A DNA stretch of 64,000 nucleotides from Oasisia sp. SBJ-2009 (Eukaryota > Annelida > Polychaeta > Sabellida > Siboglinidae): positions 19,686,904 through 19,750,903 of the forward strand of contig OZ024866.1 in the NCBI GenBank assembly GCA_964017155.1, given 5' to 3'. How positions within the stretch are numbered: the first letter of the stretch is position 1; every line of letters begins with the position of its first letter. Shown piece after piece: positions 2,698-53,065 of the stretch. Both the position numbers and the translations under genes were made by a program. The notes under the pieces are model-generated. The model made no database searches, was not told the DNA's origin, and saw only the letters and a list, made by a program, of their open reading frames with translations.

Positions 2698-4180
2698 ACA
2701 CCACACACGATGGACGTCGGACAACAGGAATGGGTGAACTTCAAGAGGGAAATGTACGAAACATTAAACAATAACATGTTCATTCATCCCATCGAGAGAA
2801 CAGATGATCCAGTTAACACTCAGGCAACCGTTGGACACAGCCGATAGGAGACACCGTTTCAGGGTCGTTCAAACTGGTTTGCCTAATTGTGATCTCTTGT
2901 CACTGCCTTTGTGATCTTATTAAAATTATTACTGCTACGTCATGGGGGTCGAAGTGTCCAGCGGGATTACTGCACAGTTAGAGGCACTAACGACATTTCG
3001 TTCTTATCGCATAACTTCCAACTTTTTAAAAATATATACTGTTAAGGCGAACGATAATGTGCAATACGCATAATTGTTTTAGCACGCATTTAGAGCGAGA
3101 GCTTTTCGCTGCGAATTGGACACGTGGTAAATATACGTACGCGGAGAATTTTTCAAAAAGATTTGTATAGACGCCCAGCCTCGTTGTCGTGTATGAAGCC
3201 TGACGGAGCAGGCCTGCAGACAAACTGAAGCACACACGTATTGGGTTAAATACGCCGGCAGTATACAGAATAACCCATTATCAATTATTGTCTGTTTAAA
3301 TCATGTTACAATGCAACTGTACATAGGATTGCAATGTATTGTATGTGCGTGCTTGTATGCGTGTGTGCGTGCGTGAATACCTGTGCATGATAATCATAAC
3401 CGTACCACTGTATTTAATAGAGAATTTACCAACACGTGTCTATAAAGATGGCATTAAACATATCAGAAAAAACTGCTTAGAACATGGACATATTGAATAT
3501 TATAAATGGTTCGGTCACCATAACTGTTGGCAATTTGAAATTATTGAAGTTGAGCAGTTAATCGGTGATTAAATGTGAAACATTATATGTGGATTTACAA
3601 CAGAAAAACAATTATCTTCACAAATATTTGTAAACATATGTTGACCCAACATGCTATTGAAGTTGCTTTTCTTCAAAAAAATTCTTTGTCCTTATATTAT
3701 AATGTTGTCTGTCTTCAAAAGATGATTTCTTAATTGTATTATTTGTCTCAACGTTATTGCGTCAATATGTTCTCTAGTTGTTTCCAGCACTCGGCAACGT
3801 TCTATTAAATGACTAGTCTGTGTATGTTGTGGTTACAACGTATGATCTTATGAGGTCTCATTTAACTAGTCGTGTAATCTATGTAGACTCTCTAGATCTA
3901 CCAACAACGCAGTTCTATGTCATGTTATGTTAGCGCGTTTGCGCCCGTGCTTGTGCTGATTCGTTACCTACCCATTGTAGAATCCAAAGACACCTTCGTT
4001 TTTAAGGATGGACCGAATGACCGCGAAACTCGTCTTGTGTTCCCTTGCTTTGCCACCCTCACCTAAGCAAACACATACACATTTAAAGTTGTTTCTCTTG
4101 GTTGCATTGCTAACTGCGTGCGTGTATACATACCAATCCAATACACGAACTTGTGAATGTCAATATATGTCAATATACAT

Positions 4181-5870: not shown

Positions 5871-6057
5871 GATTTAGAATTAGTCATTTATTTTTTGTAG
5901 TACTTCACGCAAAGCAGCTATTGTAACTTTTTGCTTTAAGATAATATACGGTATAGATCTGCTATAGACATAGCACACAAGCCTTATAAATGTTTTCCTT
6001 TTTCAGATAGGCCTATGGCTATGCGTGTCCTACTACATCTTTACCTACTATTATCAC

Positions 6058-6940
6058 CTGGGCCCGTGGTTATAAAGCCGTACTCGGTGCTCATGCTTAA
6101 CTCCGTGCTCAGACTCAGATCTCATGCCCAGCTGAGAATGCGTGCTCACGGTGGTTATAAAACGTCTTGAGTACGTACTCAACTGAGTACGCCGCCTTGA
6201 GCATATGCTCAACGGCGAGCTAAAGAGGCAGCTCGTTTGACGCGATGACCCAGTTTTATTCAAATACGCAGCGGCCAGACGGAACTCTCTGGTTGACGAA
6301 GATAACAAACTTGCAACTATTTATAAACAATATCAACTGCCGACTATAAACCGATGATGGACGAATACTTTCGCAGTTGTGACATGTGGTTATATTTGGT
6401 GAAAAACGAAGGGAATATCGACAGAATATCTTTTGCATGGTCACGGAACCTACTTCGCAGTGAACAACGGAATAGCAATTATACACACAATCAAAACTGA
6501 CAAAAGATTAAATAGTACATAAACCAGAATTAGCCTGCATTTGCCACGCTGTAGTCGGTGTTTATAATAAATAAATAAATAAATATCTTAGAATCCGTGC
6601 TTGTATTACAGCTTATATTGTATGCAATAAATCAATCGTAATTTTCCAATGCTAAGATAGCGCAAAGGTTATTTATACTACTGAAATATAGATATGTTAC
6701 ACTGTAACAAGTCTCATATTTTGACAAAGTACTTGTAAGGGAGCGGCCGTAATTTATCACACCACATCGAATCATAGATGAATTATTATTTGCAACTAGT
6801 CTTAGACTAGTTCAAAGGGTCATTTGACAGGAATCCGTGTTCGAATACATGTGTAACACTTTTGCCTTAAGTAACTAAAACCTCTCAAAGTGCTGCGTCA
6901 AGTTATCGAGACAGCTCAAAGCGATTTAGAATTGTTATCT
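6058..6940 (+). repeat. Left arm of long inverted repeat
   Basis: It matches the reverse complement of 9476-10083 with scattered mismatches, including CTTACAAGTACTTTGTCAAA and TTACGATTGATTTATTGCAT on the opposite strand. Bases of about 6293-6545 have no counterpart in the right arm. Confidence 0.8.
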
Positions 6941-7716
6941 ACCCGGAGGAATTCACTGTTTTGAGAGGTGTATGACACTATGCAACCGTGCCAGATGTGG
7001 CATAGCGTCGCCGTAGTGCAATTCTGTCATGTTATTGTGAATGTAGACACTGCATTGAATGTATTCAACAAACAATGACATACAATGTGCATGTAATGTA
7101 CAAGGTAATTCACAAGTAACACATAAACATGAATCTAGACACAGCATCTATTTGCTGTGTATACATTCCATAAGAAACACAATCTATAGGCGTGTTGAAA
7201 GGAAATGCAAAAAACTAAATACTTATTATTTGTATTTTTGTATAGGTTTCTAAACTAATTTCAAGTATTACATAAACACAATGTTGACTAGAAAATTACA
7301 CACTCTTTGCTATGTATTTTGATACAGTAATACACCATCCTATACTTTATATTATAAACAATAAACATATTGATCATTGTTATTAGTACCTTTCATATTT
7401 TTATATAAGAATTCTTGTTAAATGTTTTTTAAACTAATAACCCACTCTAGAGGTCTGACTGTACCCGATTCCACACCTTAAAGCCCATAATACTAATTCC
7501 ACTATAATTTATTTTGTAATTAATATTTATGTTGCATGTATTATGTTTGTGATTATCACATACTATCTCAAAGTAAGTTAACATATATGATCTGGAAGCA
7601 AATTGTTGTTAACTATAACATAAACACCATACTGTTTAAATCATTCATATCGTACACACACAGCTAATAACTAATGATAGGTCTTGCTTGTGACAAGTAC
7701 CCTTCATCTTTACATA

Positions 7717-8420
7717 TTAGTCATTGTTTTTTTTCTGTAACATATATAACGGTGGTATCTTGTTCTCATATGTATTTCCCCCACACTTCATAGCAGTAAT
7801 TAAGCAAATTTTAGGCATGATGAGTACCGACAATATAATACATGAATATTTACTTTTGATCTTCTTACTATGATCATTCCAACCTGACAGTACAATCTGT
7901 AGTATAAAAGGTTTCGATATTATTTCCATTAATGCAAATTGTGAGATTGGTGCCATCAGCAAATGTTATATGTGTCATAACAGTTGATAATTTACACGTC
8001 ATAAAATATAGGCTAAATAAAATTGGACCAAGTATGAAACCTTGTGGAACCACATGTTATATTTTGGTAAGTTGAATTTGTTTCATTCATAGATGCATAG
8101 TGTTTTTTTTTTATTCAGTTGGCTATGTATAGAAGTTTATACTACAATTATAATGCACAATGTTCTAGTTTCTTTAACAAAATTATGTTGCCAACAGTGT
8201 TAAATGCCTTTTTTTTAATATGTAAACATTTCTATTGAGGATCTTGAGTTATTAGTTGTTGTTGTTGTTAATACTTCAACCATTTCTAATATTACTATTA
8301 CAGTTCAGTGTTTCTTTTCTAAATCCATACTGCCCATTGTAGTTTTTAACATTCAAGAAATACATTAATCAATTATGAATATAATTGCTAGTATTTTCGA
8401 GAACTGAGGTAAAACAGACA
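7717..8420 (-). pseudogene. Jockey/CR1-type LINE reverse transcriptase relic
   Basis: Translated in shifting minus-strand frames, this shows ordered RT landmarks: LPQFSKIL (near 8405), QYGFRKET (near 8325), ILLKKLEH (near 8180), VPQGFILGPILFSLY (near 8040), FADGTNL (near 7965) and GGNTYENKIPPLYMLQKK (near 7760). The usual FADD box reads FADG, and several stops and frameshifts are present, so the copy is dead. Part of its 5' end (8284-8420) is repeated inverted at 9352-9480. Confidence 0.82.
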
Positions 8421-8487
8421 CTCGCTCGTAGTTAGAGAGAATTCTTGTGCAACATACATTTTGCTCAACGCCGTACTCAAGCAAACA

Positions 8488-8950
8488 AAGATGGCAGCTC
8501 ACGCAGAAATTGGTCGATTTCATAGTCAAAGTTCGTCGTTTTTGACAAGATCTGCAGTCCGATTTCAGCGTCCGAGTCGCTTACGAGGTGTTATCGATCC
8601 ATTTGAAGAGGTGGTGTAACAAGAATGATTTGACAGGCACTGTGTTGTGCCTAAAACGGCGGTGTTTATTGAACATTTGCAAACTTAAGCGGCAGACGAC
8701 GACAGTACGATACAGTGTTGCAATATTATGTTTTGGTGGCAGTTTTTCGGTGATGGGACCATTCGTTTACTGCTTGGCGACACAAGCTCACGGCCAATTG
8801 CCAGACGAAAATTTCCCCAAAGCTGTGTGTTGTCGTTGGACGAGTAATGAAGTACAGTCGTGGACATTTAGCCATACCGATGGGACATATATGTACTATT
8901 CTGACCTTCTCGAAATAAACAAGAACAACATGAACGAAGGACACTTTTAA
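8488..8950 (+). pseudogene. Possible PIF/Harbinger transposase remnant
   Basis: An ATG at about 8491 opens a short frame (MAAHAEIGRFHSQSSSFL to PFEEVV). Later frames contain FFGDGTIRLLLGDTSSRP (about 8740-8800), reminiscent of the LRFxxxGSF..xxGD block of Harbinger transposases. Frameshifts separate the parts. Just upstream, TGCTCAACGCCGTACTCAAG (near 8462) matches the subterminal motifs of the surrounding inverted repeats, tying the frame to the element. The similarity is weak. Confidence 0.33.
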
Positions 8951-9475
8951 ATGCTCTAGTTAATAAAAAGAATAAGAATGTAAATATTATTATACTCCTT
9001 TTAAAAAGAACAAATCAAATCACTGCAGAAATAATATTGTAAATGTTTTAATTATTTTCAAATATAGGTCAAACACAATCCCAAATGCCCCAATAATGTT
9101 AACCATTACATGAAAGAAAGCATAGAAGGGTCCTTAAACCTGTTACTGTTAAGATATTTTGGCCTTAATATACATTGCTAAATGTAAAAAGATCATGATG
9201 GTATTATGTTGCTATTGATATAATCCCTAATTAAGATGGTAATGCCATATATCAATATTCTAAAATATCTTGAACACATTCAACAGATAACTATAAAATG
9301 GAGATTTTTCGGGTAAGGTGGAAATTGTGCGGGTAATCTCCTAGTCTGTAGTCTGTTTTACCTCAGTTCTCGAAAATACTAGCAATTATATTCATAATTG
9401 ATTAATGTATTTCTTGAATGTTAAAAACTACAATGGGCAGTATGGATTTAGAAAAGAAACACTCAACTGTAATAG

Positions 9476-10083
9476 TAACAATTCTAAATCGCTTTGAGCT
9501 GTCTTTGTAACTTGACGCAGCACTATTGAGAGGTTTTAGTTACTTAAGGCAAAAGTGTTACACATGTATACGAATACGGACTCCTGTCAAATGACCCTTT
9601 GAACTAGTCTAAGGCATTGCAAATAATAATTCATCGATGATTCGATGTGGTGTGATAAATTACGGCCGCTCCCTTACAAGTACTTTGTCAAAATATGAGA
9701 CTTGTTACAGTGTAACATATTTATATTTCAGTAGTATAAATAACTTTTGCGCTATCTTAGCATTGGAAAATTACGATTGATTTATTGCATACAATATAAG
9801 CTGTAATACAAGCACGGATTCTAAGATATTTATTTATTTATTATAAACACCGACTACAGCGTGACAAAATATTTGAATAAAACTGGGTCATCGCGTCAAA
9901 CGAGCTCCCTCTTTAGCTCGCCGTTGAGCATTATGCTCAAGGCGGCGTACTCAGTTGAGGACGTACTCAAGACGTTTTATAACCACGGTGAGCAGGCATT
10001 CTCAGCTGAGCATGAGATCTGAGTCTGAGCACGGAGTTGAACATGAGCACCGAGCACGGCTTTATAATCTCGGGCCCAGGAAT
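9476..10083 (-). repeat. Right arm of long inverted repeat
   Basis: Inverted copy of 6058-6940 lacking a segment of about 0.25 kb. Its outer end reads CGGGCCCAGG, mirroring CCTGGGCCCG at the left end. Confidence 0.8.
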
Positions 10084-13542: not shown

Positions 13543-13690
13543 TAGTTAGTAAATATAAAATATATTGTATTGTTGGTCTGGTGCTAATTCTAAAAAAACG
13601 AAGGCCTTTATATTATGCTAGTAGTAATATGGCGTTTGTTTCAGTACACTATAAATGTGGAGCAGTTCCGCAGCGAAAAGGAACGTTGTG

Positions 13691-14500
13691 ATTGGTTATA
13701 AATATAGACTCGCGCATGCGCGGAGGTGTACTTCCGGAGTTATATATGTAAGGAAGGCGCTGATTGGTTGTATGATGTCACCGCGCGTGCGTAGAGTGTG
13801 CTTCCGCTGAAACCTCAGTTGTCGCCCACGGCGCGGTGACATACGCGCCATCTATCGAATACGCTGCACGTTAGTGAAGGAGCGCCCTCTCGTGAAAGGG
13901 TCGATTTCCTGTCCTAATATGTATGTCGGCGCGCCGCGGCGTTCCGACGTCACGCGGGAAATGCGCGTACTCGCAATTTTCGTTCGGCGGCGTATACGGT
14001 GATGCCCGATTTAGAACGCTCCGCGCGGCTTGCCGACGTCACGCGGGAAAAAGTGCATACTCGCAATTTTCCTCGCCCACGGCGCAGTGACACGAACGCT
14101 ATCTATCGAATTAGTAAAGAAGCGCCCTCTCTTGAATAAGAGGACGGGTGTCGCTTGGCGGCTGTACCTATTTGTAGGGTAGTCGTAGTATATGTGTGTG
14201 CGCGAGCGCGTTGTTTTTGTCAGTATTGACAATGTTATAGTCGAGATACGCTGCACGTTAGTGAAGGAGCGCCCTCTCGTGAACGGGTCGATATCCTATC
14301 CATATGGATGTCGGCGCGCCGCGGCTTCCCGACGTCACGCGGGAAAAGCGCGTTCTTGCAATTTTCCTTTTGGCGCATTATACGGTGATGTCCGATTTAG
14401 AACGCCAAGTGCATACTTGCAATTTTCTTCGCCCACGGCGCAGTGACATAAGCGCCACAATTTGCCTCGCCCACGGCGCCCCAAAATACGGGTTTAGCCG
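13691..14500. promoter_or_regulatory. GC-rich repeat cluster at left arm tip, promoter-like motifs
   Basis: CpG-rich DNA holds repeated blocks. TCGCCCACGGCGC occurs at about 13822, 14073, 14428 and 14467. GACGTCACGCGGGAA occurs at about 13946, 14034 and 14330. ACGCTGCACGTTAGTGAAGG followed by AGCGCCCTCTCGTGAA occurs at about 13860 and 14248, with a diverged third copy near 14110. Near the tip, ATTGG (CCAAT box), TATAAATA and CGCGCATGCGCG (13711-13722, fitting the NRF-1 consensus) occur within 35 bases. They could be transposase-binding subterminal repeats or a promoter; the sequence does not decide. Confidence 0.55.
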
Positions 14501-15514
14501 CGCGAAGTCGTGGAAACGAAGCGAAGCCGACCGGCGTGGAGATAAGTGACACGCGTGGGAGTGTAGCCGAACCCCAGGCACACTTACAAGTCGGTATCCA
14601 AGTCCGAGACTCCGGACTATAAGAAACGAGTTCGCCAACTTCGCTGAACTTCGCTCGCAAATCGCGCACAACGCCTACAAAAATTAAGGCGCCAGCGCCC
14701 GAACTCGTCGCCCCGGCAACGAGATTTGTGACGGCCCGCGACTAAATATACGCGAGCTGTGGTAGGTCCGGCAGCTGTACTTATCAGTGAGCGGCGGTAT
14801 CGGGTGACGAGCCGGGTCCTGGTTTGAGCTGCGTCGTGGTAAATAAAATCAACGATAGCTTGACATCGATAGATGTATCATAGCAAGTGCGAGTGGACAT
14901 TAGTTTTGAGCCGCGCTAAGTAAGGCATTTTGATCCTCGGTCCAAATAACAGGATTTGGGATTAAAGCTTGAGCAATAAGTAATATTGGCGTAATTAAAG
15001 TTAAGTAATCAAACGAGAACAGTGAACTGGTTAATATTTAATTGGCCAGTTAAAAGTTGCCATTCGACTGAAGCGCCAACATCCGCTTCTAACAGGTACG
15101 CTTGAAATTGTATTCAAAACGCATGGTGACATCGTGCTATGTTAATCTTATTGATCGGAAGTATGTAACGAATTGCATTGTTATTTTTTAATCTTACCAT
15201 TATGCATTTTGACCAAAACCCCGGGCACGGGACGCTAAAGTGATAGTCTAGCGCAAGTCGTAACGTGATGCATGGATGCTTAGCTCCAGAGCTGCTGATA
15301 ATCCCGACAGTGTGTGAATAATATAATTGAATAAATAAAACCTAACAAAGTAGTTGATGACATGTTATGAACTGTAATGATATATGTAAGTGTAGTCCGT
15401 ATGTTATGATATTTGCTGCTGCTAATAAACTTAGACAAATAATCGTCAAACTTGACAGCGCGCGTATATTGGCTACGGTGGCAGCCGAGCAAAACTGAAT
15501 ATTTTTATTCGGTT

Positions 15515-15705
15515 GGCCACAAAACTTGTCAGAAATGTAGTGTTTCCCAATCTGAGATAACGTATAAAAGAAATTTGATGGTTATTCAAACAGAACTCGG
15601 TGCACGTGCATAGCAACGGTACTAAGCAACGAGTTTCATTGCGCACTGAGCTTCATTCACCGGATATCAGTCGCGGCTGGGCGGCAGCTTTTAAAGTTTC
15701 GCAGT
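15515..15705 (+). repeat. Direct repeat copy 1 within left arm
   Basis: It shares with 16655-16835 the ordered blocks CAAAACTTGTCAGAAATGTA, AGAACTCGGTGC, GTGCATAGCAACG, CTAAGCAACGAGT and GGCAGCTTTT. Both copies are mirrored in the right arm (about 24414-24603 and 23043-23223). Confidence 0.75.
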
Positions 15706-16044
15706 CGTTGTCGTTGTTTTTTTGTGTGAACAGTTGTAACTAATGTGATATGGCACAGAGAAGTGTACATTTCGTTTGTATGGCCGACAAAATTCTATAT
15801 TATAATACACACTCGCTATACGCAGACTACTTAAGGCGTTTCGCTGCGCGGTTACAGTAACATATCATCCATTCAATTCGTAACTGAATTTGGGGATACA
15901 GCACTGGACATGTAATTAAAGTCTGCAGTCTTGGTGTATCGTCGCAGCTATTCTTTATCCCTGTATTTTTATTACGTGCAGTAGATGACATAATACATGT
16001 TATTCCCAAATCGCCGTCTCGTCAGTATGGCAAATTTCCGCGTA

Positions 16045-16615
16045 AAACCGGGAACTCACTAAGCCGGCCGGCCGGCCGATTTTGCATCGGCCGGACGTCG
16101 TAGGGCATCGGCCGGGCATCGGTTATGTGAGTTCCAAAAATCGTGGCACCGGCCGGGCGTCGTGCGTCGAGCCGATGCCCGCATGCCGTCGGCCGGCGGT
16201 ATCAAATATGTTTGATATTGCCGGCCGGCCGACGCCTACCCGACGCCCGGCCGGCAGATCCTCTGAGACATTGCCACAAAGCGGCACTTGCAGCAACACA
16301 ACTCGGCATGAATTCATCCTCTGAGTCCGCCATGATGAACCTTTGGATGTAGGTCACCTGGGCGAGCATATTGAATACCTCTATGGAAAAAAAAATCAAA
16401 CTAATTCGAATTTAAATTAATAGCGCTTAAATTATGAAATCGGCCGGCTGTGTGTGTTCGAAAAATCGTAGCATCGGGCGGGCAACGGCCGGCCGGTCGG
16501 CCGGTTCTGTGAGTTCCGAAATGAACAAACCGGCCGACGGCCCGATGTTCCCACGACGCCCGGCCGATTTCATTTTTCGTGAGTCGGCCTGCCGGTTCAG
16601 TGAGTTCCCGGGTTT
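16045..16615. mobile_element. GGCCGG-rich MITE (left arm copy)
   Basis: The ends are inverted: AAACCGGGAACTCACTAAGC at the left and, as the reverse complement of the right end, AAACCCGGGAACTCACTGAA. The interior is packed with GGCCGG/CCGGCC and GGCATCGG motifs and nested hairpins. On the minus strand near 16333 a short frame begins MADSEDEF, which may be a transposase N-terminal scrap. The 3-base flanks (TAA / TAG) hint at a PIF/Harbinger TWA target but do not match exactly. Confidence 0.65.
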
Positions 16616-16654
16616 AGGTGCAGGAAGTGTGAATTGAATTTGTTTCCGAGCATG

Positions 16655-16835
16655 GCACCAAAACTCGTCGGAAATGTAGTGTTCATCAAACTGAGAAAAC
16701 GTATGAAAGAAATTGTGTATTTGTTTGACTAGAACTCAGTGCCCGTGCATAGCAACGAAACTAAGCAACGAGTATCATTGCGCGCTGTGCGCCAATAATC
16801 TGCTGCGCACGGCAGCTTTTGAAGTATACCGTCGC
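16655..16835 (+). repeat. Direct repeat copy 2 within left arm
   Basis: Diverged duplicate of 15515-15705 (CAAAACTCGTCGGAAATGTA, GTGCATAGCAACG, CTAAGCAACGAGT). The two copies flank the GGCCGG-rich MITE. Confidence 0.75.
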
Positions 16836-18719
16836 TAGTAGGCGCCATGCATCATCGCATTGACTCTATTCTAGTAGCTCAATTAGTTTAATCCTTTAAC
16901 TCAATTAGAAGTTTATATTGACAGCGATGTTAGCAATGCAGCGGTTAGTACACTAGCTGCATATTTATTTGGATCATTCGCGTTAAGATTCTGTCGAATG
17001 TGTAAGTGTAGAAACATATCTGCTTGAGCTACGTGAAGGATGGTTTGATCTTGTTGTGTGGTTTTGCATATGTATTATCGAATACACATAATTAATCAGT
17101 TTCAGATAACGTAGGAAATATATTCGTTTATTGATCAGGCAGATTTCTTATACATAGCAACCGCTCTGTGTATAGTCTCTGCTGGAATTCTCAACTTGTT
17201 ATTTCATATATCCACTTTTACAAAGCGTGCCCCACGTGGAGGTCTCGTAGTCGATAGAATAATTCTGTCCGACGGTGTTGAGACATTCCAGGCAGTACCG
17301 ACAATGTGCCGAAATAAATTATACTCGACTTGTCGTTGACTATCCGTTCTATGTATTGTTTCTATAGTGGCGATCTTGGTGCGTCACAAATAAAAAAGTG
17401 CATTTATCTACTTTGGATTTCGCAGATTTTGTGTGCGATCTGGCGTGCCAAGTCGTCTTTGCGGTGGAGGCCCCGGGGTCACAAGTTCAAAACTAAATTT
17501 AACGCGCGTAAGGCCGGTTAACTCAGCTAATGTTTTTGTATAACACAATTCACATTCGACTCCCGACAAACTGTGTAATGATAACGGGTGGTATATATGT
17601 TATAGGTTCAATATGAAATCACAATCACCACTATCGTTATCACCACGCAGTGCGAGTTAGGTATGTATGCGCGGCCTAGACTAGTATGACCTAACACAAG
17701 CGTTTTGACAATAAGCGCTTTTCCATTTGATAGACTAATGGAACAACATAGGGTGTGCACTGTGAACAGAAATGCATAAATGAACTTAGTTTCGACAGGT
17801 AAGCAATAGAGATGTTACAACGAGAAAACAGTCGCTGCAACTTCGGCGCGGTTTTAGCCGCCGCACCTCGGGCGCCCAACTTTCACGCCGCACCTCGGGC
17901 GCCCAAGTTTCATGGATTGATCAACGAGCCCGTGGATGTAACTTAGCCTTACCATATCTCGATATATGTTAAAATAATAATCTTTTATTATTGAGATAAA
18001 TCAGTTGTTCGAAACATAAAACGTAACACGCAAAACATAACTTAACAATCACGGGAAATACCGGCCACGCATCAAGGGCGTAGCAATATGAAGTAGACGC
18101 TGATTCAGTAATGATTATATTAACGTCAAGTATGGTAATAGGAATATTATAATGACAATTCGGCAACATCACTATCAACTAAGTAATGTCGATCGATAGC
18201 GTGGATTTTACATTATCCCCGTTCTTCGTTATGTTTAACATACAACGGGTGTTTATGTGACGGTGTTGTGCCTTCTCTAACACAACCGCGTATGGAGATA
18301 GATGTATAATGGTGTATATGTAGTTTGCGTACCATTGTCGGCAGTGTGACAATACACAATACCGAAGTGTAAAGGTCATAACCCGAGCGAAACCGGGAAG
18401 GCCCGAAGGAAGACTGGATAGATGAGAAGATTAACCGTCTATACCAACATGGTTGAACTAATTCCTATACAAAAATCAAATTGATCTACGATACATTATT
18501 GATATGTGCACTGGTTAACGGGTACTTCCTTGTAAATCGTCGTGGTCAGTAAATGTTATAACCTGTCTATGGTAAGGATCATATTCTCGGTGTCGAACGT
18601 AACAACTTTATTAAACATGGCAGACAGGCAGACGAATACGCGGGAACTAACTCAGTTCCAATGAGGCGTATACAAAAGATCAAATCGATCTACGAGATAT
18701 TATCGCAAGTTCAACCATC
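16836..18719. other. Palindrome arm body without recognisable gene
   Basis: Mixed unique sequence with only short open frames, each duplicated at the mirror position (21161-23042 on the opposite strand). The near-identity of the frames simply reflects the palindrome and is not evidence of selection on protein. Confidence 0.5.
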
Positions 18720-19962
18720 TCGTCCTCTCCTTATGATCGTTTTCATCGTCATGCTGTCGGTCGCGATGCGACAAAAGACTGCTTCCATCACTTGACTATT
18801 GCTCTCCATTTTTCTCTCTGCTGTGAGAGTGATGTCCATGAGTCGGTCTTTATGTTTCTCAGCTTCAGGTTTCTCTTAATGGTATCCTTGAATCGGAGAC
18901 GAGCGGCGCTCTCTTTCTGTGACCAGAAGGCAGCTGGGAGTAGAGAACCTGCTTTGGTAACCTGTCTGGTGACGTCCTCATGAGTTGTCCAGTCCACCGG
19001 AGATTCTTTCCGATCAGAAGATCTTACATAGATGGCAGCCCTGTTCGTTCGAGTATTTCCTTATGTGTCACTTTTGTCCATCCAGGTTATACTCATGATC
19101 GAACGCAGATATCGCATCATGTAGGCATGCAGCTTTTTCATCTGTCGTCTTTACACTGGCCAGGTCTCTGCTTCATATAGGAGGGTGGACAGCACGGTTA
19201 GACGGTATAACTTGCCTTTGACCCGCATGGACACGTGGTGGGTCTTCCAGAGTCTCTGGCGTAGTCGGCCGAAAGATGCACTAGCCTTGGCCATCCTCCT
19301 ATATTTAATCGTCAATGCATCCATTACTTGATATAGTGCTTCTGGGGTAGGTGAATTCAAGAACAGAATTCAACTTGTTTCCATCAAACATGATATCCTC
19401 CTCTCGGGTTCTTGTAGAGTTTGGTTGGTACAGCACCTCGGTCTTCTTGATGTTAACCTTCAGCCCGAATTTATTTTGATGCATCGGAGAAAGCATCCAC
19501 TATTTTCTGTATCTCTTCAGCAGAGTGTGCAACCAGTGCACTGTCATCCGCGAATAGCAGCTCTCTCGTCAGTTCTCTCATCAGGATCCCAGTAGTCTTG
19601 ATCTTCGCTCTGAAGTGTGCAACGTTGAATAGGTCAGTGATCTGTCTGGACTGTATGTAGACGCCATCTCCCATGTCTCGGAAATAGTCGTCGACCATTG
19701 CTGATAGGAAGATGGAGAAGAGCGCGGGGGGCCAGTAAACAACTCTTCTTGACCCCATTTGTGACACAGAACGATTCCGAGACTTTCCATCCAACACTAA
19801 CGTTCGCCATCATTCCGGTATGTAGTGCCTCGATCATTGATGTGAACTTCTCTGGGCAGCCAAACTTCCTCAGCAGCTGCCATAGCCCGGTCCTCCCAAC
19901 TGCATTGAACGCCTTACTGAAGTCGACAAATACTATATACAGTAGTCGGTCCTGCTCAACGC
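18720..19962 (-). pseudogene. LINE reverse transcriptase fragment, left arm of palindrome core
   Basis: Minus-strand relative of the LINE at 1163-2184. Order: VEQDRLLYIVFVDFSKAFN (near 19950), [39 protein letters not shown] (near 19550), [20 protein letters not shown] and the 3' end near 18730. Frameshifts and stops separate these segments, so it is inactive. It runs away from the palindrome centre and keeps RT residues deleted in the right copy. Confidence 0.9.
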
Positions 19963-20143
19963 AGTTGATATGTCTTGGTACAATGAATCTCCCATTGTCG
20001 CATTGATATACACTGCGGTACTCAAAGCTCCGCATTATCGATTACAACGTGATTGATGTCGATCTCCTTTCTTCGACATCTTCAAAACGCACCCAACTTT
20101 CCATTTGATATGATATTTTGTATCAGACAGCTACAAGAAAAGC
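19963..20143. other. Spacer of giant palindrome
   Basis: These 181 bases are not shared between arms. The right part (about 20101-20143) is original LINE sequence: it translates to IFCIRQLQEK and runs in frame into VEQDRLLYIVFVDFSKAFN. The left part does not fit the LINE protein at the same point, so the left copy was truncated or replaced right at the symmetry centre. Confidence 0.75.
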
Positions 20144-21160
20144 GCGTTGAGCAGGACCGACTACTGTATATAGTATTTGTCGACTTCAGTAAGGCGTTCA
20201 ATGCAGTTGGGAGGACCGTCTACATACAGTCCAGACAGATCACTGACCTATTCAACGTTGCACACTTCAGAGCGAAGATCAAGACTACTGGGATCCTGAT
20301 GAGAGAACTGACGAGAGAGCTGCTATTCGCGGATGACAGTGCACTGGTTGCACACTCTGCTGAAGAGATACAGAAAATAGTGGATGCTTTCTCCGATGCA
20401 TCAAAATAAATTCGGGCTGAAGGTTAACATCAAGAAGACCGAGGTGCTGTACCAACCAAACTCTACAAGAACCCGAGAGGAGGATATCATGTTTGATGGA
20501 AACAAGTTGAATTCTGTTCTTGAATTCACCTACCCCAGAAGCACTATATCAAGTAATGGATGCATTGACGATTAAATATAGGAGGATGGCCAAGGCTAGT
20601 GCATCTTTCGGCCGACTACGCCAGAGACTCTGGAAGACCCACCACGTGTCCATGCGGGTCAAAGGCAAGTTATACCGTCTAACCGTGCTGTCCACCCTCC
20701 TATATGAAGCAGAGACCTGGCCAGTGTAAAGACGACAGATGAAAAAGCTGCATGCCTACATGATGCGATATCTGCGTTCGATCATGAGTATAACCTGGAT
20801 GGACAAAAGTGACAAATAAAGAAATACTCGAACGAACAGGGCTGCCATCTATGTAAGATCTTCTGATCGGAAAGAATCTCTGGTGGACTGGACAACTCAT
20901 GAGGACGTAACCAGACAGGTTACCAAAGCAGGTTCTCTACTCCCAGCTGCCTTCTGGTCACAGAAAGAGAGCGCCGCTCGTCTCCGATTCAAGGATACCA
21001 TTAAGAGAAACCTGAAGCTGAGAGACATAAAGACCGACTCATGGACATCACTCTCACAGCAGAGAAAAATGGAGAGCAATAGTCAAGTGATGGAAGCAGT
21101 CTTTTGTCGCATCGCGACCGACAACATGACGATAAAAACGATCATAAGGAGAGGACGAGA
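20101..21160 (+). pseudogene. LINE reverse transcriptase fragment, right arm of palindrome core
   Basis: Plus-strand mirror of the left copy, with a 226-base internal deletion: AFNAVGRT is joined at 20218/20219 to VYIQSRQITDLF, which in the left copy is separated by positions 19662-19887. It keeps the 5' stretch IFCIRQLQEKRVEQDRL and the FADD box near 20330. The remainder is broken by the same frameshifts as the left copy, so the decay preceded the inverted duplication or was homogenised between the arms. Confidence 0.9.
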
Positions 21161-23262
21161 TGGTTGAACTTGCGATAATATCTCGTAGATCGATTTGATC
21201 TTTTGTATACGCCTCATTGGAACTGAGTTAGTTCCCGCGTATTCGTCTGCCTGTCTGCCATGTTTAATAAAGTTGTTACGTTCGACACCGAGAATATGAT
21301 CCTTACCACAGACAGGTTATAACATTTACTGACCACGACGATTTACAAGGAAGTACCCGTTAACCAGTGCACATATCAATAATGTATCGTAGATCAATTT
21401 GATTTTTGTATAGGAATTAGTTCAACCATGTTGGTATAGACGGTTAATCTTCTCATCTATCCAGTCTTCCTTCGGGCCTTCCCGGTTTCGCTCGGGTTAT
21501 GACCTTTACACTTCGGTATTGTGTATTGTCACACTGCCGACAATGGTACGCAAACTACATATACACCATTATACATCTATCTCCATACGCGGTTGTGTTA
21601 GAGAAGGCACAACACCGTCACATAAACACCCGTTGTATGTTAAACATAACGAAGAACGGGGATAATGTAAAATCCACGCTATCGATCGACATTACTTAGT
21701 TGATAGTGATGTTGCCGAATTGTCATTATAATATTCCTATTACCATACTTGACGTTAATATAATCATTACTGAATCAGCGTCTACTTCATATTGCTACGC
21801 CCTTGATGCGTGGCCGGTATTTCCCGTGATTGTTAAGTTATGTTTTGCGTGTTACGTTTTATGTTTCGAACAACTGATTTATCTCAATAATAAAAGATTA
21901 TTATTTTAACATATATCGAGATATGGTAAGGCTAAGTTACATCCACGGGCTCGTTGATCAATCCATGAAACTTGGGCGCCCGAGGTGCGGCGTGAAAGTT
22001 GGGCGCCCGAGGTGCGGCGGCTAAAACCGCGCCGAAGTTGCAGCGACTGTTTTCTCGTTGTAACATCTCTATTGCTTACCTGTCGAAACTAAGTTCATTT
22101 ATGCATTTCTGTTCACAGTGCACACCCTATGTTGTTCCATTAGTCTATCAAATGGAAAAGCGCTTATTGTCAAAACGCTTGTGTTAGGTCCTACTAGTCT
22201 AGGCCGCGCATACATACCTAACTCGCACTGCGTGGTGATAACGATAGTGGTGATTGTGATTTCATATTGAACCTATAACATATATACCACCCGTTATCAT
22301 TACACAGTTTGTCGGGAGTCGAATGTGAATTGTGTTATACAAAAACATTAGCTGAGTTAACCGGCCTTACGCGCGTTAAATTTAGTTTTGAACTTGTGAC
22401 CCCGGGGCCTCCACCGCAAAGACGACTTGGCACGCCAGATCGCACACAAAATCTGCGAAATCCAAAGTAGATAAATGCACTTTTTTATTTGTGACGCACC
22501 AAGATCGCCACTATAGAAACAATACATAGAACGGATAGTCAACGACAAGTCGAGTATAATTTATTTCGGCACATTGTCGGTACTGCCTGGAATGTCTCAA
22601 CACCGTCGGACAGAATTATTCTATCGACTACGAGACCTCCACGTGGGGCACGCTTTGTAAAAGTGGATATATGAAATAACAAGTTGAGAATTCCAGCAGA
22701 GACTATACACAGAGCGGTTGCTATGTATAAGAAATCTGCCTGATCAATAAACGAATATATTTCCTACGTTATCTGAAACTGATTAATTATGTATATTCGA
22801 TAATACATATGCAAAACCACACAACAAGATCAAACCATCCTTCACGTAGCTCAAGCAGATATGTTTCTACACTTACACATTCGACAGAATCTTAACGCGA
22901 ATGATCCAAATAAATATGCAGCTAGTGTACTAACCGCTGCATTGCTAACATCGCTGTCAATATAAACTTCTAATTGAGTTAAAGGATTAAACTAATTGAG
23001 CTACTAGAATAGAGTCAATGCGATGATGCATGGCGCCTACTAGCGACGGTATACTTCAAAAGCTGCCGTGCGCAGCAGATTATTGGCGCACAGCGCGCAA
23101 TGATACTCGTTGCTTAGTTTCGTTGCTATGCACGGGCACTGAGTTCTAGTCAAACAAATACACAATTTCTTTCATACGTTTTCTCAGTTTGATGAACACT
23201 ACATTTCCGACGAGTTTTGGTGCCATGCTCGGAAACAAATTCAATTCACACTTCCTGCACCT

Positions 23263-23833
23263 AAACCCGGGAACTCACTGAACCGGCAGGCCGACGCACG
23301 AAAAATGAAATCGGCCGGGCGTCGTGGGAACATCGGGCCGTCGGCCGGTTTGTTCATTTCGGAACTCACAGAACCGGCCGACCGGCCGGCCGTTGCCCGC
23401 CCGATGCTACGATTTTTCGAACACACACAGCCGGCCGATTTCATAATTTAAGCGCTATTAATTTAAATTCGAATTAGTTTGATTTTTTTTCCCATAGAGG
23501 TATTCAATATGCTCGCCCAGGTGACCTACATCCAAAGGTTCATCATGGCGGACTCAGAGGATGAATTCATGCCGAGTTGTGTTGCTGCAAGTGCCGCTTT
23601 GTGGCAATGTCTCAGAGGATCTGCCGGCCGGGCGTCGGGTAGGCGTCGGCCGGCCGGCAATATCAAACATATTTGATACCGCCGGCCGACGGCATGCGGG
23701 CATCGGCTCGACGCACGACGCCCGGCCGGTGCCACGATTTTTGGAACTCACATAACCGATGCCCGGCCGATGCCCTACGACGTCCGGCCGATGCAAAATC
23801 GGCCGGCCGGCCGGCTTAGTGAGTTCCCGGCTT
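23263..23833. mobile_element. GGCCGG-rich MITE (right arm copy)
   Basis: Mirror copy of 16045-16615, nearly identical because it lies inside the palindrome arm. Confidence 0.65.
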
Positions 23834-24139
23834 TACGCGGAAATTTGCCATACTGACGAGACGGCGATTTGGGAATAACATGTATTATGTCATCTACTGC
23901 ACGTAATAAAAATACAGGGATAAAGAATAGCTGCGACGATACACCAAGACTGCAGACTTTAATTACATGGCCAGTGCTGTATCCCCAAATTCAGTTACGA
24001 ATTGAATGGATGATATGTTACTGTAACCGCGCAGCGAAACGCCTTAAGTAGTCTGCGTATAGCGAGTGTGTATTATAATATAGAATTTTGTCGGCCATAC
24101 AAACGAAATGTACACTTCTCTGTGCCATATCACATTAGT

Positions 24140-24385
24140 TACATTGTGTATTCGATGATATATATCACAATATCATCCATACACACAAACCATATCCTTC
24201 CTGTATCTTATGCAGAAACTGTTCACACAATGATAAGCTATAGGCCCTAGGCCTACATTCGGCACATGATGAATGACCGAAACAAAAACTGTATGTAGTT
24301 ATATATTCTAAACGCAACAATGTATAATATATCGTTGTCAGTTTGATTTGTTTAACTGAACAACTGTTCACACACAAAAACAACG
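24140..24385. repeat. Right-arm-specific insertion (about 246 bp)
   Basis: The left arm reads straight through GTGAACAGTTGTAACTAATG (near 15728). In the right arm the same junction is split by about 246 AT-rich bases. I see no terminal repeats or coding content in the insert. It could equally be a deletion from the left arm. Confidence 0.7.
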
Positions 24386-25624
24386 ACAACGACTGCGAAA
24401 CTTTAAAAGCTGCCGCCCAGCCGCGACTGATATCCGGTGAATGAAGCTCAGTGCGCAGTGAAACTCGTTGCTTAGTACCGTTGCTATGCACGTGCACCGA
24501 GTTCTGTTTGAATAACCATCAAATTTCTTTTATACGTTATCTCAGATTGGGAAACACTACATTTCTGACAAGTTTTGTGGCCAACCGAATAAAAATATTC
24601 AGTTCACCCTTCACACACCTTACGTGGAATTTTGCTCGGCTGCCACCGTAGCCAATATACGCGCGCTGTCAAGTTTGACGATTATTTGTCTAAGTTTATT
24701 AGCAGCAGCAAATATCATAACATACGGACTACACTTACATATGTCATTACAGTTCATAACATGTCATCAACTACTTTGTTAGGTTTTATTTATTCAATTA
24801 TATTATTCACACACTGTCGGGATTATCAGCAGCTCTGGAGCTAAGCATCCATGCATCACGTTACGACTTGCGCTAGACTATCACTTTAGCGTCCCGTGCC
24901 CGGGGTTTTGGTCAAAATGCATAATGGTAAGATTAAAAAATAACAATGCAATTCGTTACATACTTCCGATCAATAAGATTAACATAGCACGATGTCACCA
25001 TGCGTTTTGAATACAATTTCAAGCGTACCTGTTAGAAGCGGATGTTGGCGCTTCAGTCGAATGGCAACTTTTAACTGGCCAATTAAATATTAACCAGTTC
25101 ACTGTTCTCGTTTGATTACTTAACTTTAATTACGCCAATATTACTTATTGCTCAAGCTTTAATCCCAAATCCTGTTATTTGGACCGAGGATCAAAATGCC
25201 TTACTTAGCGCGGCTCAAAACTAATGTCCACTCGCACTTGCTATGATACATCTATCGATGTCAAGCTATCGTTGATTTTATTTACCACGACGCGGCTCAA
25301 ACCAGGACCCGGCTCGTCACCCGATACCGCCGCTCACTGATAAGTACAGCTGCCGGACCTACCACAGCTCGCGTATATTTAGTCGCGGGCCGTCACAAAT
25401 CTCGTTGCCGGGGCGACGAGTTCGGGCGCTGGCGCCTTAATTTTTGTAGGCGTTGTGCGCGATTTGCGAGCGAAGTTCAGCGAAGTTGGCGAACTCGTTT
25501 CTTATAGTCCGGAGTCTCGGACTTGGATACCGACTTGTAAGTGTGCCTGGGGTTCGGCTACACTCCCACGCGTGTCACTTATCTCCACGCCGGTCGGCTT
25601 CGCTTCGTTTCCACGACTTCGCGC

Positions 25625-26434
25625 GGCTAAACCCGTATTTTGGGGCGCCGTGGGCGAGGAAAATTGTGGCGCTTATGTCACTGCGCCGTGGGCGAAGAAA
25701 ATTGCAAGTATGCACTTGGCGTTCTAAATCGGACATCACCGTATAATGCGCCAAAAGGAAAATTGCAAGAACGCGCTTTTCCCGCGTGACGTCGGGAAGC
25801 CGCGGCGCGCCGACATCCATATGGATAGGACATCGACCCGTTCACGAGAGGGCGCTCCTTCACTAACGTGCAGCGTATCTCGACTATAACATTGTCAATA
25901 CTGACAAAAACAACGCGCTCGCGCACACACATATACTACGACTACCCTACAAATAGGTACAGCCGCCAAGCGACACCCGTCCTCTTATTCAAGAGAGGGC
26001 GCTTCTTTACTAATTCGATAGATAGCGTTCGTGTCACTGCGCCGTGGGCGAGGAAAATTGCGAGTATGCACTTTTTCCCGCGTGACGTCGGCAAGCCGCG
26101 CGGAGCGTTCTAAATCGGGCATCACCGTATACGCCGCCGAACGAAAATTGCGAGTACGCGCTTTTCCCGCGTGACGTCGGAACGCCGCGGCGCGCCGACA
26201 TACATATTAGGACAGGAAATCGACCCTTTCACGAGAGGGCGCTCCTTCACTAACGTGCAGCGTATTCGATAGATGGCGCTTATGTCACCGCGCCGTGGGC
26301 GACAACTGAGGTTTCAGCGGAAGCACACTCTACGCACGCGCGGTGACATCATACAACCAATCAGCGCCTTCCTTACATATATAACTCCGGAAGTACACCT
26401 CCGCGCATGCGCGAGTCTATATTTATAACCAATC
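25625..26434. promoter_or_regulatory. GC-rich repeat cluster at right arm tip
   Basis: Mirror copy of 13691-14500 with the same CCAAT, TATA-like and NRF-1-like motifs near 26400-26435 and the same repeated CGCCGTGGGCGA and GACGTC blocks. Confidence 0.55.
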
Positions 26435-26644
26435 ACAACGTTCCTTTTCGCTGCGGAACTGCTCCACATTTATAGTGTACTGAAACAAACGCCATATTAC
26501 TACTTATGGTATTTAAAAATATGGTTATTTTGGCTACATGTATTTGAATTTTATTTTACATGTATTACAATATTTGATGATTTCATTTAGCAAAAATATA
26601 CACCATTTGGATTAATTATCAGAATGCAAAACTACATTACCGAG

Positions 26645-26860
26645 CTGATATGACGTCTGTTAACGTCACGGGTGGACGTAATTTTGCGACCATTAAGGTA
26701 CGTCAAGATGACGTTGCCTGAGCGTCATCACCCAACGTTGCGACGTGACGTTGTCACAACCGTTGTGCAACGTCCTTGATGGCATCACCAAACCGTGACC
26801 AAAAGGCGGCGTCGCCTGGACGTCACGTGAGAGGTCAAACGAATTTGCCGCCCCTTCTGA
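26645..26860. other. ACGT-dense patch
   Basis: About a dozen ACGT tetramers (GACGTC, AACGTC, GACGTTG, CGACGTGACG) occur in about 200 bases just outside the palindrome. It could be an end of an unrecognised transposon or a CRE-like cluster; no frame is present. No gene was recognised from 26512 to 27332. Confidence 0.35.
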
Positions 26861-51177: not shown

Positions 51178-53065
51178 TCTGTCAGTGTGTAATAGTGAGG
51201 TGGCAGACTCAGTTCTTAAGTCGTCCTCTAGACTGTGTCAGTGTGTGATAGTGAGGTGGCAGACTCAGTTCTTAAGTCGTCCTCTAGACTGTGTCAGTGC
51301 GTAATAGTGAGTTGACTGTCTCAGGTCTTAAGTCGTCCTCTAGCTAGACTGTGTCCGTGTGTAATAGTGAGGTGACTGTCTCAGTTCTTAAGTTGTCCTG
51401 TAGACTGCGTCAGTGTGTGATAGTGAGGTGACAGTCTCAGTTCTTAAGTTGTCCTCTAGACTGCGTCAGTGTGTAATAGTGAGGTGACTGTCTCAGTTCT
51501 TAAGTTGTCCTCTAGACTGTGTCAGTGCGTGATAGTGAGGTGATTGTCTCATTTCTTAAGTTGTCCTCTAGACTGTGTCAGTGTGTGATAGTGAGGTGGC
51601 AGACTCAGTTCTTAAGTTGTCCTGTAGACTGCGTCAGTGTGTAATAGTGAGGTGACAGTCTCAGTTCTTAAGTTGTCCTCTAGACTGTGTCAGTGTGTGA
51701 TAGTGAGGTGACTGTCTCAGTTCTTAAGTTGTCCTCTAGACTGCGTCCATGTGTAATAGTGAGGTGACAGTCTCAGTTCTTACATAGTCCTCTAGACTGT
51801 GTCCGTGTGTAATAGTGAGGTGACTGTCTCAGTTCTTAAGTTGTCCTCTAGACGGTGTCAGTGTGTAATAGTGAGGTGACAGTCTCAGTTCTTACATCGT
51901 CCTCTAGACTGTGTCCGTGTGTAATAGTGAGGTGACTGTCTCAGTTCTTAAGTTGTCCTCTAGACTGTGTCAGTGTGTGATAGTGAGGTGACAGTCTCAG
52001 TTCTTAAGTCGTCCTCTAGACTGTGTCAGTGTGTGATAGTGAGGTGACAGTCTCAGTTCTTACATCGTCCTCTAGACTGTGTCCGTGTGTAATAGTGAGG
52101 TTACTGTCTCAGTTCTTAAGTCGTCCTCTAGACTGTGTCAGTGTGTGATAGTGAGGTGACAGTCTCAGTTCTTAAGTCGTCCTCTAGACTGTGTCAGTGT
52201 GTGATAGTGAGGTGACAGTCTCAGTTCTTAAGTCGTCCTCTAGACTGTGTCAGTGTGTGATAGTGAGGTGACAGTCTCAGTTCTTACATCGTCCTCTAGA
52301 CTGTGTCCGTGTGTAATAGTGAGGTTACTGTCTCAGTTCTTAAGTCGTCCTCTAGACTGTGTCAGTGTGTGATAGTGAGGTGACAGTCTCAGTTCTTAAG
52401 TCGTCCTCTAGACTGTGTCAGTGTGTGATAGTGAGGTGACAGTCTCAGTTCTTACATCGTCCTCTAGACTGTGTCCGTGTGTAATAGTGAGGTGACTGAC
52501 TCCGTTCTTAAGTTGTCCTGTAGACTGTGTCAGTGTGTGATAGTGAGGTGACAGTCTCAGTTCTTAAGTTGTCCTCTAGACCGTGTCAGTGTGTGATAGT
52601 GAGGTGACTGTCTCAGTTCTTAAGTCGTCCTCTAGACCGTGTCAGTGTGTGATAGTGAGGTGACTCTCTACGTTCTTAAGTCGTCCTCTAGACTGTGTCA
52701 GTGTTTGATAGTGAGGTGACAGTCTCAGTTCTTAAGTCGTCCTCTAGACTGTGTCAGTGAGTGACAGTGAGGTGACAGTCTCAGTTCTAAAGTCGTCCTC
52801 TAGACTGTGTCAGTGTGTGATAGTGAGGTGACTGTCTCAGTTCTTACGTTGTTGTCTAGACTGTGTCAGTGTGTGATAGTGAGGTGACAGTCTCAGTTCT
52901 TAAGTTGTCCTCTAGACTGTGTCAGTGTGTGATAGTGAGGTGACAGTCTCAGTTCTTAAGTCGTCCTCTAGACTGTGTCAGTGTGTGATAGTGAGGTGAC
53001 TGTCTCAGTTCTTAACTTAAGTCGTCCTCTAGACTGTATCAGTGTGTGATAGTGAGGTGACAGCA
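51178..53065. repeat. 56-bp tandem satellite array, about 33 copies
   Basis: The unit runs GTGTCAGTGTGTGATAGTGA, GGTGACAGTCTCAGTTCTTA, AGTCGTCCTCTAGACT (56 bases); repeat starts at 52921 and 52977 confirm the period. Variants alternate at fixed sites: CAGTGTGTGATA or CCGTGTGTAATA, GACAGTC or GACTGTC, AAGTCGTCC or ACATCGTCC. The CCGTGTGTAATA variant recurs at 52081, 52305 and 52473, that is 4 and 3 units apart, showing higher-order structure. 56 is not divisible by 3, and all frames contain stops. Confidence 0.97.

Follow-up and report, generated by a model that had tools for sequence, protein, structure and literature searches.

The stretch of DNA analysed here, referred to as the window, comprises 64,000 nucleotides of the siboglinid annelid Oasisia sp. 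SBJ-2009 (assembly GCA_964017155.1, contig OZ024866.1, positions 19,686,904 to 19,750,903) and contains a long palindrome that is probably a mobile derivative of a Polinton (Maverick). An earlier note, made from the letters alone, had described a near-perfect 12.9-kb palindrome with arms of about 6.1 kb, and self-BLAST and arm alignment show that this structure is real: the arms measure 6.1-6.3 kb and differ by 22 substitutions over 6,115 aligned bases. The alignment contains four indels in all: the right arm alone has 27 bp at 24605-24631 and 219 bp at 24144-24362, and the left arm alone has 2 bp at 18813-18814 and 226 bp at 19662-19887. The features of the element are listed below in window coordinates; labels beginning with C denote other loci of the same genome.

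13614..13619, no strand: left copy of the target site duplication, TATGCT, in the register set by other loci
13620..19962, plus strand: left arm, pairing with the right arm (self-BLAST, arm alignment)
13620..14071, plus strand: outer end common to non-palindromic relatives, with the tip AGTAGTAATATGGCG
14146..14251, plus strand: subterminal block, which among the coding relatives compared matches ATPase-side ends only
18743..19962, minus strand: 3' part of a long interspersed nuclear element (LINE) in the left arm, sharing about 90% identity with the LINE at 1162-2182
19963-20143: spacer between the arms (19963..20106 as a feature row, with the right-arm LINE beginning at 20107)
20097..20126, minus strand: inner fold junction, where the inverted LINE is joined to the spacer; common to C3, C12a (1 base different), C13b, C8a and C14b
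20107..21135, plus strand: the same LINE in the right arm, its start set by eye
20144..26504, minus strand: right arm (self-BLAST, arm alignment)
26053..26504, minus strand: right-arm mirror of the outer end (arm alignment)
26505..26510, no strand: right copy of the target site duplication, TATGGT, a 5/6 match to the left copy

Outside the LINE, a six-frame scan of the window arm matched no Pfam family, and no DDE integrase was recognised; nor was a protein-primed PolB, packaging ATPase, cysteine protease or capsid protein recognised in the window. The left-arm LINE matches RVT_1 at E 0.00018, below the Pfam curated cut-off, and the window's other LINE (1162-2182) does so at E 2.3e-07, above it. 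Other copies carry 853 bp more of the LINE at the spacer, which the window is without. Base composition sets the element apart from its surroundings: the ratio of observed to expected CpG exceeds 1 in 21 of the 21 250-bp steps of the left arm outside the LINE (13601 to 18850), compared with 0.83 in the rest of the window beyond the palindrome, and GC content shifts sharply at both palindrome ends, with a further CpG-rich stretch in the right flank (26601-26850). At the thresholds used, no tRNA or Rfam content was detected, and a comparison of 13621-15621 with plasmids found no similarity.

The genome search with the tip that the earlier note had proposed was carried out with the outermost 281 bp of the arm against the 764 Mb assembly (33 contigs). 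It returned at least 54 matches, at least 40 of which cover at least 251 of the 281 bases; the best 40 of 98 candidates were scored, so that copy counts are lower bounds. Among these 40 near-full-length tips, 24 form 12 inverted pairs spaced 7.9-18.0 kb apart (the window, C11, C3, C12a, C13b, C8a, C7, C9, C12b, C14, C8b and C12c), each with its own duplication, which supports the suggestion that a giant fold-back element moved as one piece. A two-member protein cluster had hinted at a low copy number, a hint overturned by the many matches to the tip. Searches with tip patterns gave no match in the viral contig and genome contig collections.

Sixteen loci were examined, namely the 12 pairs (window included) and the surroundings of four of the 16 unpaired tips (C2, C5, C14b and C10). 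Nine are palindromes: seven of the window type (the window, C11, C3, C12a, C13b, C8a and C14b, the last with a left arm that lacks the outer part and starts at arm position 15240) and two others (C12b and C14). The stretches fetched for C7, C9, C8b, C12c, C10, C2 and C5 are non-palindromic, and as far as fetched C2, C5 and C7 hold one window-type arm each, incomplete in C2 and C5. The middle of the palindromes varies. C12a, C13b and C14b keep it in full, as the 5' part of the LINE found in the arms (a reading made by eye); C3 keeps 399 of the 853 bp, none of it remains in the window and C8a, and C11 is without nearly the whole centre.

The earlier note had also reported an 8-base flank repeat, TTATGCTA before 13621 and TTATGGTA after 26503. 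The letters are correct, but the duplication is 6 bp long: the register taken from other copies places the element at 13620..26504, one base further out than first read, and each of the octamer's two extra matching bases pairs an outermost element base with a flank base. When 200,000 pairs of flank positions were drawn at random, at least 7/8 bases agreed with a frequency of 0.0009, and any duplication-like match of 6-10 bp turned up with a frequency of 0.005. The duplication is perfect (6/6) at 10 of the 12 paired loci: CTCCAC (C11), GATATT (C3), ACTGAC (C12a), CATGTT (C13b), GTCGGC (C8a), AACGAA (C7), ATCATT (C9), GTCGTC (C12c), CATGGT (C8b) and CGGGTT (C14). At the window and at C12b (AACGTT/AACGTC) it matches at 5/6. 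For C8b, C12c and C14 it was taken by eye because their tips are variable beyond AGTAGTA and the automatic register was misplaced. Tips of the form AGTAGT...ACTACT adjoin 6-bp duplications at the paired loci, and neither the 8-bp duplication of hAT, P and Merlin elements nor the roughly 9-bp duplication of Mutator-type foldbacks was found there. In PMC8097293, (AGT)2//(ACT)2 ends and 6-bp target site duplications are given as marks of Mavericks.

Four of the non-palindromic relatives, C8b, C12c, C9 and C10, carry Polinton-type genes. Pfam recognises an integrase (rve with chromodomain) in C12c and C10, and blastp finds its homologues in C8b (97%) and C9 (91%). An ATPase resembling Poxvirus A32 lies above the cut-off in C12c and just below it in C10, both of which also encode a protein with an RPA C-terminal domain (Pfam), and a match to adenovirus protease among the coding relatives is weak (E 0.067). 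C8b has a 1557-aa frame (L024:3957-8627) with a Vsr-like endonuclease near residues 1057-1125, in which regular expressions pick out DFE at 594, DANALY at 978 and DTDS at 1384. No transposase of hAT, P, Merlin or Mutator type appeared among the scanned frames of C7, C8b, C9, C10 and C12c. The outer end of the window element is 98.0% identical to C10 over 452 bp and 97.6% identical to C7. Because this C10 end, its RPA-side end, is nearly identical to the window tip, elements of the C10 type probably supply proteins to the window element.

The arm itself is probably a decayed ATPase-side Polinton end. This view follows from three observations: the block at 14146-14251 marks ATPase-side ends (98% identity in C10 and 95% in C9, and 90% over the inner 57-59 bp in C8b and C12c); the arms of C12b and C14 retain a short ATPase match (25-28 residues, 50-56%); and C7 combines a left end bearing an RPA gene with a right end that is a window-type arm. 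The inner fold junction is identical in six of the seven window-type members (one base off in C12a), which points to a single founder for them. C14 continues past the window's fold point into 190 bp unmatched in the other fetched loci and is folded at 2647/7386; since this is another point, folding occurred at least twice. C12b, whose arms meet at 3387/5191, may share C14's fold. Three fold points had been considered, and were reduced to two because the middle of C12b is rearranged.

If all window-type members had one founder, the two arms of an element should differ from each other at least as much as they differ from other elements. Only stretches matching across 93% or more of a block entered the comparison. 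In C12a the arms show 0/4231 differences, whereas the nearest other copy differs by 0.284%, and four private changes are present in both arms. The same holds for C11 (3/4437 versus 0.284%, with 5 private changes in both arms), C13b (5/4829 versus 0.497%, with 13) and C14b (8/3626 versus 1.101%, with 11), and a first run on other blocks gave the same picture. That the arms of four of the seven members are closer to each other than to any other copy suggests re-copying at transposition; most simply, arms would be equalised before integration and drift apart later.

We therefore propose, with a probability of roughly 0.78, that the window holds a palindromic element with Polinton ends and no recognisable Polinton gene, inserted whole by the integrase of coding Polintons acting in trans. 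It is likely that fold-back copies of this kind, nine of which were identified, each move as one unit with the help of proteins from the virus-like Polintons of their genome, and likely too that the unit arose when a Polinton ATPase-side end carrying a LINE was inverted-duplicated and then spread. According to PMC6431247, the polymerase that Polintons encode for their replication is protein-primed. Polinton replication probably proceeds as linear DNA. A Polinton would first have decayed, taken a LINE insertion and retained its ATPase-side end. A broken or stalled linear copy may then have been inverted-duplicated inside the LINE, most likely during protein-primed replication, either by snapback template switching, in which a copy broken in the LINE would copy its own other strand, or by end fusion, in which it would join a second broken copy. 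The resulting molecule, with two identical functional ends, would hold everything needed in cis for integration, and could be replicated and then inserted again and again at fresh locations. The strand displaced in replication would probably form a hairpin of 6 kb, which would equalise the arms before integration; afterwards they would drift. More tentatively, and at somewhat short of even odds, we suggest that Polintons make snapback genomes through replication errors that give a linear copy the same functional end twice: gene-less palindromic parasites of their parent that re-fold their arms to identity in each cycle, and whose arm divergence dates extrachromosomal replication.

Several observations weigh against this account. 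The arms of the window differ at 17/4827 positions (0.352%) versus 0.331% to the nearest copy, those of C3 at 42/4421 (0.950%) versus 0.766%, those of C8a at 29/1831 (1.584%) versus 0.490%, and, in the first run on other blocks, those of the differently folded C12b at 30/888 (3.378%) versus 2.477%. Either re-copying is not universal or these four insertions are older. Greater age would most simply account for the window, C3 and C8a, or, in the case of C8a, whose arms are placed apart in the tree with support of 0.61-0.78, a chimeric origin. The inner junction, inspected by eye, shows little or no microhomology, which disfavours simple fold-back priming, and the window's own duplication contains one mismatch (TATGCT/TATGGT). 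On the protein side, Pfam did not identify a DNA polymerase domain in C8b's 1557-aa frame, a stricter first regular expression for polymerase motifs gave no match there, and the polymerase reading draws on the three motifs listed above, which resemble those of B-family polymerases. Capsid protein was not recognised in the relatives scanned. Identity of the ends is the one observation that points to supply in trans, and the copy counts on which the argument draws are, as noted, minima.

Among the rival explanations, ordinary gene conversion after integration, as in sex-chromosome palindromes, could keep the arms alike with no re-copying at transposition, and it would likewise yield the private changes found in both arms of C13b, C14b, C11 and C12a. 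The remaining window-type members for which private changes were counted argue otherwise: in C3, 29 lie in one arm and 3 in both, in the window 16 and 1, and in C8a 12 and 0, so conversion after integration was not strong at those loci. We regard this explanation as unlikely, though a serious possibility. It is distinctly doubtful that each palindrome was newly folded from a single-arm element at a hotspot, giving a shared junction without a single founder. Single window-type arms do exist in C2, C5 and C7, and C14 shows that folding happened more than once, but a junction common to six of seven window-type members, with little microhomology, speaks against independent folding.

Two origins raised in the earlier note now look very improbable. 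One is an inverted duplication of local DNA in place, with a chance match of the flanks. An inverted duplication did occur at some time, and the founder must stem from one; the window's flank match, at 5/6, is also imperfect. Yet the copies of the tip and their target site duplications refute an in-place origin where mobility is concerned, since the arm type is common to seven loci (window included) with different flanks, perfect 6-bp duplications adjoin the same kind of tip in 10 of 12 pairs, and GC content changes abruptly at both ends. The other is a cut-and-paste fold-back transposon related to hAT, P or Merlin, to which we add Mutator, with duplications of 8-9 bp. The general fold-back layout and the octamer as first read had favoured it, but the other loci have 6-bp duplications, the coding relatives pair a chromodomain integrase with an ATPase, and neither the arm outside the LINE, with no Pfam family, nor the scanned frames of the relatives hold such a transposase; ends and coding relatives are those of a Polinton. 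An assembly artefact can be set aside almost entirely: hairpin reads and whole-genome-amplification chimeras do produce palindromes, but here unique flanks lie on both sides, target site duplications are present, and the structure recurs at several loci on different contigs.

The window element thus resembles Polintons (polintoviruses) in its AGTAGT...ACTACT ends, its 6-bp duplication and an outer end that nearly matches the end of a coding member from its own genome, and differs from them in having no recognised Polinton gene and two ends that both appear to be ATPase-side. To our knowledge, how Polintons replicate, and whether they leave the chromosome at all, is largely a matter of inference. 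Intact vertebrate Mavericks span 12.7-24.6 kb, a range that includes the length of the element, unlike its 6.1-kb inverted repeats, which compare with 46-1,447 bp in Mavericks (both ranges from PMC8097293). With foldback elements such as Drosophila FB and Tetris it shares long inverted arms with internal repeats, a variable middle and a lack of genes; long inverted arms, a non-coding middle and mobility are all found in the window element, whose middle is part of a LINE. In sea urchin, TU is likewise the name of a foldback element. Tetris has arms of up to 1,735 bp and duplications of 8-10 bp (PMC4079207); unlike Tetris and other foldbacks, the window element has a 6-bp duplication, integrase-type relatives and arms about 3.5 times as long as those of Tetris. 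Galileo elements with extended inverted repeats have similarly drawn internal sequence into the repeats, although Galileo belongs to the P superfamily and its arms reach about 1.25 kb; the same source mentions reported expansion of Polinton inverted repeats (PMC3573991).

A literature search, mainly at the level of titles and abstracts, found no description of a palindromic or fold-back Polinton. Adeno-associated virus is primed differently and is not known to be related by sequence or to be inserted by an integrase. Its snapback genomes are self-complementary half genomes, symmetric or looped (PMC8235507), and serve as a model of how the window element may have arisen. That a palindromic family has retained nothing of Polintons but their ends suggests that these are sufficient in cis. 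Palindromic derivatives would be a natural marker of aberrant linear replication, with arm divergence as a possible insertion clock, and near-perfect 6-kb hairpins scattered through an animal genome could matter for small-RNA silencing and genome stability.

Some further observations concern the elements and their surroundings. The left arms of C11 (L009:1080-4066, about 3.0 kb) and C12a (L013:969-5131, about 4.2 kb) contain inserts absent from the right arms. Both arms of C12b and C14 have an open frame of 185-186 aa (L022:2034-2591, L022:5993-6550, L023:1916-2470 and L023:7563-8117). One copy per element was scanned and matched a NADAR domain (E 1.6e-24 and 6.4e-26), and the two unscanned copies share 96-97% identity with those of the other element; the frame is an unexpected cargo. 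The idea that a NADAR-containing segment was swapped in both arms after folding was dropped, as single-arm copies already hold the window-type segment. In the 1557-aa frame of C8b, the Vsr-type endonuclease sits between the sequences that resemble polymerase motifs A and C.

Within the window arm, a GGCCGG-rich stretch (16043-16616) with 32-nt inverted ends (88% complementary) may be a small independent element that travels with the arm. Another inverted-repeat element, roughly 4 kb long, lies at 6057-10080; its arms match in pieces of 211 bp (94.8%) and 403 bp (95.3%), and its tips are CCTGGGCCCG and CGGGCCCAGG. The window also contains a ZIP1 gene with 95% identity to ZIP1 of Ridgeia piscesae and 81% to that of Lamellibrachia satsuma, which makes a vestimentiferan tubeworm the likely host. 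A tandem array at 51180-53063 has a unit of about 56 bp and shifted copies about 88-93% alike.

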